NCBI GenBank assembly: GCA_028693235.1
Contig: JAQUVW010000001.1
Span: 124,001-188,000 of the forward strand
DNA length: 64,000 nucleotides
Direction of reading: 5' to 3'
Source: Candidatus Gastranaerophilales bacterium
GTDB lineage: Bacteria > Cyanobacteriota > Vampirovibrionia > Gastranaerophilales > Gastranaerophilaceae
The first letter of the stretch is position 1. Each line of letters starts with the position of its first letter. The notes under the pieces are model-generated. The model did not search any database. It worked only from the letters and a program-made list of their open reading frames with translations, and was not told where the DNA came from. Positions 4,112-52,854 of the stretch are shown piece after piece. The position numbers and the translations under genes were made by a program.

Positions 4112-4144
4112 AAAAAGGGGTCGCATTTCTGCAGCCCCCTTTTT
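4112..4144. terminator. Bidirectional terminator
   Basis: An AAAAAGGGG / CCCCCTTTTT hairpin lies between the converging TPR and SLH genes. It has A tracts on one side and T tracts on the other, so it can serve both strands. Confidence 0.85.
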
Positions 4145-4164: not shown

Positions 4165-6264
4165 TTATTTTTGAGTGTGACAACCGAATGCGATTGTAAC
4201 TTTTTCTTTCGGATTGATAGAAGATACTTTCATACCTTTAGGGTCGACCAAGTAGGTGAGCTCGTCACCTGTATATTGGAACAATCCCATAGTTCCTGAT
4301 AAAGCAGTTCTCGTAACGTCAACAGGAGCGGTAACGATTTGTTTTCCGACATCTTGGTAGCTTCTGCCGGCAGCACGGAATTGACCAGTGAATAATTCGC
4401 CAGTAGCTACGCCGACTCCGTTAATAGTATTGTCAACAGCGTTGCTGGCACTGATTATTGCTCCACCTACTGTTCTTCCTACGTCACCCAATAAACCACC
4501 TGTCCAAGTGAATGGGAATTCAATGGCACGCATAAAGCCGTTTGGTTTTTTGATTTGGTTTACTTGAGCTGTAAGAATTTGGTTAGGCAAGTCTGCTTTG
4601 CAATCGCCGTTTTGGATAGTGTTGAATGAAAGTCTTAAAGCACCTTGACAGTTTTTAGTAGGTCTGACGACTTCAAGAACTTTACCTCTAACCATAGAAC
4701 CTGCAGGGTAGCATACGCCGTCAATAGTTACTTCATCTATTGTTTTTGCGGCAAATTGGTCGCCAACGTGAGCAGATTTTGAGTTGATTTCATCGCTGAA
4801 GCAAAGTTGAAGGGTCGGAACTTTTGTAATTGATTCTTTTTCCATATAAGCAGCAGCTCCGGTGCAACCACAATCACCTGTAGAAGCAACATCATCTTTG
4901 CTGTAGCCGAGGGCTACTCTTACGTTTTCAAGCATGTTCGCAATTTCTGCACGACTTGCGTCTTTGTTTGGCGAAATCATGTTTGGTTGAGGTGAATCGG
5001 CCATTGCACCAACTTCAAGAGCTTTAGCGATAGGTATTTTAGCCCAGCTTGGAACGGAATCGCCGTCACAATATTGGCTTAGGATTTGACCAGCTTTGCA
5101 ATCGTCCATCGGGCAGTTGATACCTTTAGAAAGAATTGTGAAAGCTTCGGCTCTGTTTAAAGGTTCATTCGGCTTGAATAAATCATTCGGATAACCGCAC
5201 ATCATGCCGTTTGAAACAGCTTTGTTGATGGTTTTGTTAGCCCAGAAGTTTTCAGGTACATCTTTGAATACTTTTTCAGGGCAAGTCATTTTGTCGTTCA
5301 AGTTTAAGCCTTTTACAATCATGGTAGCCATTTCAGCTCTTGATACAGGAAGGTTTGGTTTGAACGTTCTGTCAGGGTAGCCGGCGATAATGCTGTTTTC
5401 TGCAAGTTTGTTGATATCGCAACCAGCCCAGAAACCGCTTGGAACGTCGTCAAATGAGCTTACAAGAGGTACTGCAGCTCCTGTTGGAGTTGAAACTTCA
5501 AAAGGAACTAATGATTTTTGTAATACTTCAACGCTGGAATTTGTGTGGATTTGAACAGGACAGCAGGAGCCATCAATGTTCATTGGATTTCTATCTACAG
5601 AAATGCCGTTAGCACAAGGTGCGTTGTTCATACAAGGGATAGGTGATGCTGCACCTGTTGTTGCACCTGATTGACAACCGCATTCACTGTTTGCGACAGG
5701 AATACCGCTAGGTGAGCAAGCTGTAGCTTGAGCGTCGTCACCTAGAAACAATCCGTTGTTTCGTTCGCCGATAACTTGATTGTCGCCATAGATAGCGTTT
5801 GGATAAGCGTAAACTTGTTGTTTAAATTTTTGTCCGTTATCAGGCTGCGGGCAAACTGCACAAGCAGGCGGTGAAGGTTGCGGACATTGTTGCATTTGCG
5901 GACAAGGATCAGCGGGCGGGCAAGGACAAGCCGCTCCTGTCATATTGTCGTCGCAAGGTGTTTGTGCCTTTTCACAAGGGTCGCATTCGCATGGATCGCA
6001 ATCGCATGGTGCTGCGGCTTTCTCGCAAGGGTCACATGAGTCGCATGAAGGTTTCGGGCAAGAACAACTGTTGGTATCTTGCAAACAGCTTGGGCAAGTT
6101 GCCGTTTGTGGTGTCACAGGAGTAGGGCAACCGGACAAAGGGCAAGCTGCCAGAGTGCTTGAAGATGCATCCGTTGTTAAATCTTCCGTAAAACCTGCAT
6201 AACTTGTGCTTGCCAAAAGTCCAATGGACAATGCTACGGCAAGCGTAAATTTGTTGATAGTCAT
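4165..6264 (-). CDS. SLH-domain envelope protein with Cys/Pro-rich region
   Basis: This exported protein has 699 residues. A signal peptide covers residues 1-23 (ending STSYA). Residues about 41-142 are extremely rich in Cys and Pro, with short units such as CDPCE and CPQP. Three S-layer homology domains follow, beginning near SFDDVPSGFWAG, VFKDVPENFWAN and VPSWAKIPIAKA. The second half of each carries the GYPD/FKP/SRAE-type signature; the third is more divergent. The C-terminal third has a beta-rich part (LQLCFSDEINSKSAHVGDQF) and then a Gly-rich segment of unknown role. SLH domains bind cell-wall polymers, and in cyanobacteria they anchor outer-membrane proteins to peptidoglycan. No porin barrel is evident here. 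A strong AAGGAGG site and a 5' hairpin precede the start. Confidence 0.85.
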   Translation of the reverse strand: MTINKFTLAVALSIGLLASTSYAGFTEDLTTDASSSTLAACPLSGCPTPVTPQTATCPSCLQDTNSCSCPKPSCDSCDPCEKAAAPCDCDPCECDPCEKAQTPCDDNMTGAACPCPPADPCPQMQQCPQPSPPACAVCPQPDNGQKFKQQVYAYPNAIYGDNQVIGERNNGLFLGDDAQATACSPSGIPVANSECGCQSGATTGAASPIPCMNNAPCANGISVDRNPMNIDGSCCPVQIHTNSSVEVLQKSLVPFEVSTPTGAAVPLVSSFDDVPSGFWAGCDINKLAENSIIAGYPDRTFKPNLPVSRAEMATMIVKGLNLNDKMTCPEKVFKDVPENFWANKTINKAVSNGMMCGYPNDLFKPNEPLNRAEAFTILSKGINCPMDDCKAGQILSQYCDGDSVPSWAKIPIAKALEVGAMADSPQPNMISPNKDASRAEIANMLENVRVALGYSKDDVASTGDCGCTGAAAYMEKESITKVPTLQLCFSDEINSKSAHVGDQFAAKTIDEVTIDGVCYPAGSMVRGKVLEVVRPTKNCQGALRLSFNTIQNGDCKADLPNQILTAQVNQIKKPNGFMRAIEFPFTWTGGLLGDVGRTVGGAIISASNAVDNTINGVGVATGELFTGQFRAAGRSYQDVGKQIVTAPVDVTRTALSGTMGLFQYTGDELTYLVDPKGMKVSSINPKEKVTIAFGCHTQK

Positions 6265-6281
6265 ATTTTTCCTCCTTGTAT

Positions 6282-6310
6282 AAGAAGATGTTACAGGCGG
6301 GCATCTTCTT
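6282..6310 (-). promoter_or_regulatory. Stem-loop in the leader of the SLH gene
   Basis: AAGAAGATG and CATCTTCTT form a perfect 9-bp stem with an 11-base loop, ending just 4 bases before the AAGGAGG ribosome site (6277-6271 on the minus strand). There is no T tract, so it is unlikely to be a terminator. It may stabilise the mRNA or control ribosome access. Confidence 0.5.
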
Positions 6311-6457
6311 ATTTTTCCCTATTAACATTTACAAGTTTGTATGTATGAATTATGAGGGTTAAAGCATCTTTTAATCATTACCAAAAATGCTTATCCTCAC
6401 GGGCTATTCAAAAAGTTTATATATCTTTAAAAATGATTTATTTGTGCGAAAATGTTG

Positions 6458-52212: not shown

Positions 52213-52854
52213 CTATAAGCCGTCGTAGCTGTCCTCGCCACTACCACTACCACTGCCACTGCCACTGCTATAACTATCGCAATAAGTGGCAAATTCTCCA
52301 CCCATAAGGCATGCCGCAGGTCCATCAGGGCTTATAACAGCTGCCCCGGTTGTATCTGAATCAGTGGCGTCATTATAATTTTGAAGGTAAATAACATAGC
52401 CATCTTTAGGATTATTTATATCAAGAGTTAGTTCATTAGGCTTTTTGTCGCCGTTTACATCAATTATAATTGCATAATATCTTGAACCTTCACTAGGTAT
52501 AGAGTATGCCATTCCATCTGCTGTATAAAAAGTTATAGCTCCACTTTCCCATTTATTTGCATGAACTGCCGGACTTGAGGAAGATGGCATTGAGCTGACA
52601 ATGTTTAGTCTTTTACTGAAAAATTTGTTATACCAATCATCAGCAGAGTCATAAGATAATGCATTTTCATGGGTTTGTGCATATTGTAAATCCGATGCCT
52701 GCTGCAGGATTGCCGCAGCTTTTTTCAGTGCGATTTTGTATTCTTCTTTATTTGTGTTATTTAACAGTGCAGGTATTGTTAACGCTGCAATAACTCCAAT
52801 GATAACCAACGTTATCAGCACTTCTGCTAAAGTGAAACCTTGTTTGATTTTCAT
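52213..52854 (-). CDS. Type II/IV pseudopilin-like protein with Gly-Ser tail
   Basis: This 213-residue protein has a prepilin leader KIKQG followed by FTLAEVLITLVIIGVIAALT. The globular domain includes YAIIIDVNGDKKPN near residue 130, shared with the pseudopilin at 41774, and a Cys pair near residues 183 and 193. The C-terminus has SGSGSGSG, a flexible linker, then EDSYDGL. AAGGAAA precedes the ATG. It lies 21 bp downstream of the XRE regulator gene on the same strand. Confidence 0.85.
   Translation of the reverse strand: MKIKQGFTLAEVLITLVIIGVIAALTIPALLNNTNKEEYKIALKKAAAILQQASDLQYAQTHENALSYDSADDWYNKFFSKRLNIVSSMPSSSSPAVHANKWESGAITFYTADGMAYSIPSEGSRYYAIIIDVNGDKKPNELTLDINNPKDGYVIYLQNYNDATDSDTTGAAVISPDGPAACLMGGEFATYCDSYSSGSGSGSGSGEDSYDGL

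Follow-up and report, generated by a model that had tools for sequence, protein, structure and literature searches.

A gene on the reverse strand of the 64,000-nucleotide stretch analysed here (the window) encodes, at 4165..6264, a 699-residue protein in which a signal peptide, a Cys/Pro-rich arm, conserved blocks, three S-layer homology (SLH) repeats and a VirB10-like barrel follow one another. We tentatively propose, giving the reading a little less than an even chance, that its product is an abundant, Sec-exported, wall-bound envelope connector of Candidatus Gastranaerophilales that ties the outer membrane to the cell wall and carries a disulfide-linked Cys arm, with metal binding by the arm a close second. 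We infer the periplasmic location, the ring, the tether and the disulfides of this proposal, in which the three SLH repeats would bind a CsaB-pyruvylated polymer attached to peptidoglycan, the VirB10/TrbI-like barrel would face the outer membrane or be inserted in it, probably forming an oligomeric ring like that of VirB10, and the Cys/Pro-rich arm would lie in the periplasm, cross-linked between molecules by VKOR-DsbA disulfides and stiffening the layer.

All parts of the protein described here are encoded on the reverse strand. The reading frame starts with ATG and opens with what is, by eye, a Sec-type signal peptide (residues 1-23, MTINKFTLAVALSIGLLASTSYA; 6196..6264), in which neither a lipobox nor a twin arginine was seen by eye. 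The Cys/Pro-rich arm (residues 41-138, 21 Cys; 5851..6144) contains a knuckle-like motif, C57xxC60-x6-C67xC69 (CPSCLQDTNSCSC; 6058..6096), and is followed by a Cys-free conserved block, QVYAYPNAIYG (residues 146-167, KFKQQVYAYPNAIYGDNQVIGE; 5764..5829), which is among the best-conserved parts of the N-terminal region and matched no Pfam family. A second variable region (residues 183-264; 5473..5718) carries TGAA-type motifs, and in one copy G204 and A206 are invariant in 55 of 55 alignment rows. Across the 56 orthologs we counted 185 copies of the TGAAAP-like motif (TG[AGFS][AT][AVCST]), where 100 shuffles gave 4 on average and 9 at most; the motif may serve as a signal for docking or processing.

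The sequence-only reading had singled out a dense Cys/Pro-rich stretch after the signal peptide, built on CDPCE and CPQP units, and in this it was right, coordinates included: 21 Cys and 23 Pro fall within residues 25-145, and CDPCE occurs three times and CPQP twice in the translation. The whole protein has 41 Cys, 28 of which precede the SLH repeats. For 21 or more Cys in residues 25-145, the binomial P is 6e-17 against the 1.4% Cys background of the window’s open reading frames (ORFs). Among the 59 non-overlapping window ORFs of at least 100 residues this one has the highest Cys fraction, and its richest 100-residue stretch contains 21 Cys, compared with 9 in the next-best ORF. Across 54 relatives, and for columns with at least 50% occupancy, the Cys columns of residues 25-145 have a mean identity of 0.86 (14 columns) versus 0.27 for the others (69 columns; permutation P 5e-5). 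Chance composition as the source of the Cys-rich stretch is ruled out by this test together with the binomial one. The earlier reading had also turned on the Cys being conserved between close relatives, and they are: over the same residues, identity in six close relatives (60-69% identical overall) is 0.90 for Cys and 0.43 for other residues, gaps excluded. By these comparisons, the Cys-rich stretch is selectively conserved.

This conservation is uneven along the arm. We compared 56 proteins, comprising the window protein and 55 relatives, two of which (L040 and L045) hardly differ from each other; the alignment (A2) has 55 rows. C41 is kept in 54 of the 56 proteins, C57 in 53, C69 and C121 in 49 each, C60 in 46, C127 in 43 and C46 in 42, whereas C87, C113 and C89 are nearly private to the window protein (3, 2 and 1 of the 56, respectively). 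Cys spacing is thus conserved at framework positions and not throughout, since the CDPC-type units between framework Cys vary in number. Cys are also kept beyond the arm, at C282 (49 of 56), C695 (48), C555 (47), C389 (44) and C465 (44), and Cys-poor lineages exist, such as L052 with 13 Cys. Covariation between Cys columns yielded associations (for example, 384/389 with P 3e-5; 555/695 gave P 0.13), and because these seem to follow lineages we do not take them as proof of disulfide pairs.

No known domain was found in the arm by Pfam (55 members, E<=5), a PDB profile search with 34 arms gave zero matches at E<=1, and a PHROGs search matched the SLH part alone. Membership in the zinc ribbons was rejected, the resemblance being visual only. 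A search of the window’s genome with an arm profile returned this gene as the sole match.

The arm may be joined by disulfides or may bind metal. On the disulfide side, the window’s genome encodes VKOR and DSBA domains fused in one protein, and VKOR is present in 52 of the 59 genomes of our relatives search. Cys counts, compared with VKOR presence for 50 of the 56 proteins (truncated L031 included), show no clear relation to it. Two VKOR-negative genomes, G004 and G028, have orthologs with 24 and 20 Cys against a median of 31, but that of VKOR-negative G054 has 35, and L052 has its 13 Cys, yet its genome, G038, has VKOR. In G002, a 98% complete genome with no VKOR match at E<=0.001, the ortholog, incomplete at a contig end, keeps 19 Cys and the CTKC..CNC motif. 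This retention, together with Cys totals that are odd in 24 of the 56 proteins and even in 32, argues against a fully paired disulfide fold.

Both of those observations also count towards the alternative that a wall-bound protein here carries its arm as a metal-binding module (for zinc, iron or copper), with the CPxC, CxxC-x(3-9)-CxC and CDPC units as the chelating groups, which we regard as a strong competitor though less likely than not. Motif counts in the arms of 50 of the 56 proteins (six lacking the regex block were left out) point the same way: CxxC occurs 151 times against a mean of 100 and a maximum of 123 in 300 shuffles, CPxC 34 times against 16, and C[DNE]PC, strongly enriched, 48 times against 2.4, with CC avoided (8 against 103). 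The knuckle-like pattern C..C.{3,9}C.C is present in 33 of the 50 arms, a hand count made with no shuffle comparison, and there are cytoplasmic families that bind zinc through comparable CxxC..CxC motifs, which we also count for metal. However, CxC itself is at chance level (104 against 102), the protein carries a Sec-type signal for export into a periplasm with a VKOR-DsbA oxidase, and no metal-site family is found among the 12 Pfam families matched by 55 members at E<=5. The conserved C282, C389, C555 and C695 lie in the SLH region or the barrel, where a knuckle is unlikely.

That this is an SLH protein, as the sequence-only reading had it, is borne out by Pfam, in which the SLH model scores 99.3 bits (cut-off 20.8; E 1.1e-28) over three stretches and nothing besides SLH is found in the whole protein at E<=1. 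The three repeats span residues ~271-449 (4918..5454) with the motifs SRAE, NRAE and SRAE, and R309 and E311 within them are invariant in 55 of 55 rows. The window’s genome encodes CsaB, the pyruvyl transferase for the SLH ligand (TIGR03609, 284.6 bits against a cut-off of 213.1), as well as Omp85 (149 bits, above cut-off), from which we take the genome to be diderm. In diderms the SLH ligand is carried on peptidoglycan, which places SLH proteins beneath the outer membrane; Omp85, CsaB and this established SLH biology together lead us to expect that the protein sits on the peptidoglycan, under the outer membrane. The search for SLH proteins in the window’s genome gave four, none of them porin-like by eye. 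For the window protein itself Pfam gave no porin match at E<=1, and the NCBIfam model por_somb covers residues 267-318 only, at 23.1 bits against a cut-off of 100.

The expected location bears directly on the disulfide-linked surface lattice that the sequence-only reading had offered. A classical S-layer protein, anchored by SLH and held by disulfides in a two-dimensional lattice at the cell surface, would fit the SLH repeats and the signs of abundance given below, and genome papers on these bacteria infer an S-layer from S-layer-like genes (PMC3787301; PMC4451040). The genome is diderm by its Omp85 and has CsaB, however, and SLH ligands in diderms lie beneath the outer membrane, as described for SlpA (PMC9388160), which makes a surface lattice unlikely. 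The C-terminal third, moreover, is a VirB10-like barrel, which is not a known lattice domain, and we consider the S-layer reading improbable.

The sequence-only reading had left this C-terminal third unassigned. Whole-protein family scans (Pfam, NCBIfam) indeed give it no match, but profiles built through relatives, and the predicted fold, do assign it, to a VirB10-like barrel. The first barrel strands would span residues ~483-570 (4555..4818) and are followed by a Gly-rich, weakly hydrophobic insertion (residues ~575-665; 4270..4542), which we take, from VirB10 topology as we know it, to occupy the place of the VirB10 antenna. A last strand region (residues ~666-695; 4180..4269) contains the conserved C695, its strand being putative and not resolved in the predicted model.

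The window protein has no direct match to PF03743 (TrbI), and its C-terminal domain alone matches no family at E<=10. When 54 C-terminal domains were scanned singly, the matches were weak and scattered (best E 0.013); BSD2_CRD, a Cys-rich domain model weakly matched by 2 of the 54 (best E 0.056), was taken as chance. A profile of the C-terminal domains found nothing credible in the PDB (best E 1.6). The connection runs through relatives: a TrbI search of the 59 genomes at E<=1 matched 46 of them, 3 over cut-off, and its matches include small exported proteins and SLH paralogs. Aligned by hhalign to a profile of 16 such TrbI-like relatives, the 54-ortholog profile gave 97% and E 8e-11 over 71 columns in a single comparison. 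The profile of the 16 relatives in turn matched, in the PDB, ComB10 (2bhv; E 1.9e-6), a VirB10 homolog, and CagY (E 0.0016), and the TrbI model hit all but one of these 16 relatives at E<=0.1. CagY is listed as a VirB10 homolog (PMC12624023). One SLH paralog, L101, aligns with residues 269-550 of the window protein at 36% identity (E 4e-55); its C-terminal domain alone scores 36.7 bits for TrbI, over the cut-off of 35, and as a whole protein it shows no TrbI at E<=0.05.

Structure prediction adds moderate support. The predicted full-length structure has a mean pLDDT of 35, and the AlphaFold2 model of the C-terminal domain is of low confidence (mean pLDDT 39), with blocks between about residues 20 and 90 at 59-79. 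Foldseek with this C-terminal model returned no match at E<=0.001; the best was factor H binding protein (E 0.049), and no VirB10 was among the best 50. With the same low-confidence model, VIA-align filled its first 14 rows, at Z 8.0 to 5.5, with chains that come from type IV secretion outer-membrane complexes or are named as VirB10 homologs. ComB10, CagY and TrwE appear among the titles, and the untitled chains are presumably VirB10 subunits; unrelated rows begin at Z 3.8. The alignment to 3jqo (Z 8.0) has an rmsd of 6.9 over 112 residues and that to 7o3j (Z 7.5) one of 3.4 over 94 residues. We take homology of the C-terminal domain to the VirB10/TrbI-like barrel as shown, with moderate structural support. 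Its Gly-rich insertion is weakly hydrophobic (best 19-residue mean 0.85, compared with 1.36 to 2.22 in the 16 TrbI-like relatives), which makes membrane insertion of this branch doubtful.

Gastranaerophilales is a gut order, mostly uncultured, of the lineage that is sister to the cyanobacteria and does not photosynthesise. At least 52 have a full-length ortholog (E below 1e-90) among the 59 genomes of the relatives search, which include the window’s own and one from another order of the class. Among the matches listed, G019, G031, G033, G039, G049, G051 (fragment only) and G058 lack a full-length ortholog; G058 is the other-order genome, and several of the remainder are incomplete. A class-wide draw of 146 genomes contained 52 of the same family, at least 50 of them with a full-length ortholog. 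The other 94 had none, nor any match better than E 1e-42 among the matches listed; at least 47 of these 94 had no match at E<=1e-20, and 27 of the 94 are not individually named among the matches. Such matches sit in SLH, some extending into the C-terminal domain. Close relatives were found at seven public loci, five from Candidatus Gastranaerophilales and two from ruminant-gut bacteria. In two proteins from other orders, L123 and L124, three SLH repeats are likewise present and the C-terminal part resembles that of the window protein by eye (Gly-zipper and chance matches only in Pfam); they have 0 and 3 Cys, and the Cys arm therefore seems to be an addition. L120 and L122, also from other orders, have a different, helical-looking sequence ahead of SLH, and L121 has no readable SLH frame.

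Homology to VirB10/TrbI could also mean that the protein is an SLH-anchored VirB10 variant and belongs to a machinery for type IV secretion or conjugation. VirB9/CagX, however, has no match in the window’s genome (G000) and none over cut-off in any of the 59 genomes, with matches below cut-off at E<=0.001 in 8 of them, which speaks against a secretion apparatus of the usual kind. The presence of orthologs in at least 52 of the 59 genomes, the housekeeping-looking neighbours in the window and in four relatives that we read, and the presence of a signal peptide rather than an inner-membrane anchor argue in the same direction, and we judge this role very improbable.

The envelope connector that we favour has its closest counterparts in the SlpA/OmpM-type connectors (Deinococcus SlpA, Selenomonas and Veillonella OmpM, cyanobacterial Som porins), with which it shares export and an SLH wall link. 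SlpA is abundant and ties the outer membrane to peptidoglycan, combining SLH and a coiled coil at its N-terminus with a large trimeric barrel at its C-terminus, and SlpA-like proteins have been reported from Melainabacteria (PMC9388160). The window protein does not have this layout of N-terminal SLH, coiled coil and large porin-type barrel: its SLH repeats are central, a VirB10-like barrel follows them and the Cys-rich arm stands in front. Its barrel is, by profile chain and structural alignment, the same as the VirB10/TrbI C-terminal domain of TraF, ComB10, CagY, TrwE and DotG, and it differs from type IV VirB10 in being joined to SLH, in its weakly hydrophobic antenna and in having no VirB9 over cut-off in 59 genomes. 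The nearest working analogy for the arm is with chlamydial OmcA, OmcB and MOMP, envelope proteins rich in Cys whose disulfide cross-links are believed to give the envelope its stiffness (PMC6812762), which we liken to it by description and not by sequence. Unlike those proteins, the window protein has SLH repeats and a VirB10-like domain, and its genome encodes CsaB.

No paper that combines ‘VirB10’ with ‘S-layer homology’ came up in a literature search, and among the matches listed for papers combining VirB10, TrbI and outer membrane there was no SLH. From its sequence, we would file the protein as a variant of the SLH-anchored envelope connectors, with a pairing of SLH and VirB10-type barrel that was not met in this search. 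The papers cited here say no more of the Melainabacteria envelope than that it is Gram-negative and that S-layer-like genes (PMC3787301, PMC4451040, PMC5877343) or SlpA-like proteins (PMC9388160) are present. A protein of the present kind, spread through the order and apparently abundant, suggests a hold between outer membrane and wall other than Braun lipoprotein, Pal or an SLH-porin. A further suggestion is that VirB10 barrels occur apart from secretion systems, a point of interest for the origin of that secretion part. A bolder version, which we think unlikely, is that Gastranaerophilales and relatives employ a VirB10-type barrel, released from its role in type IV secretion, as a peptidoglycan-anchored outer-membrane ring, and that in this order one apparently abundant version of it would be locked by the Cys arm into a periplasmic mesh, a disulfide- or metal-set envelope skeleton alongside peptidoglycan.

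Signs of high expression come from the gene and its leader. The NNC fraction of the gene is 0.64, which ranks it second among the 53 ORFs with 150 residues or more (median 0.30), and that of EF-Tu, identified by eye, is 0.59. Ahead of the ATG, on the reverse strand, stands a consensus Shine-Dalgarno sequence, AAGGAGG (6271..6277), and 52 of 56 orthologs have GGAGG ahead of a start picked by script, the exceptions being L031, L048, L053 and L056. A 5′-leader stem-loop on the same strand (6280..6312; 11 or 13 pairs in two scans) lies 4 nt before GGAGG. Codon use like that of EF-Tu, the consensus Shine-Dalgarno sequence and the leader stem-loop suggest an abundant product, and the hairpin might be an mRNA-stabilising leader of this protein. 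In a terminator scan, the stem-loop also scored as terminator-like on the forward strand. Among relatives, many have a hairpin of different sequence near the same place before the gene; 53 leaders were folded, two of which were too short for scoring, and 20 of the 51 scorable ones had a folding z below -1.5 against simple shuffles. An alignment of the leader hairpin across 14 relatives was insufficient for a covariation count.

At the other end of the gene, a putative terminator at 4113-4144 was seen by eye and was not called by the terminator scan. There is no evident operon; by eye, the neighbours are YebC-like, TPR and leuA/leuC-like genes, and they are partly common to the four relatives read. 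Elsewhere in the order, many genomes encode small exported proteins with a TrbI/VirB10-like barrel that have a Gly-zipper hairpin but lack SLH (L100, L102, L105, L106, L112, L118), with no VirB9 partner over cut-off, and the window’s own genome has a weak TrbI/VirB10-like match at G000:C2:44766-44939 (E 0.06). Further along the window, the reverse strand encodes at 52213-52854 a prepilin-like protein of 213 residues (GFTLAEVLITLVIIGVIAALTIPALL) that has one TGAA motif and a Ser/Gly tail.
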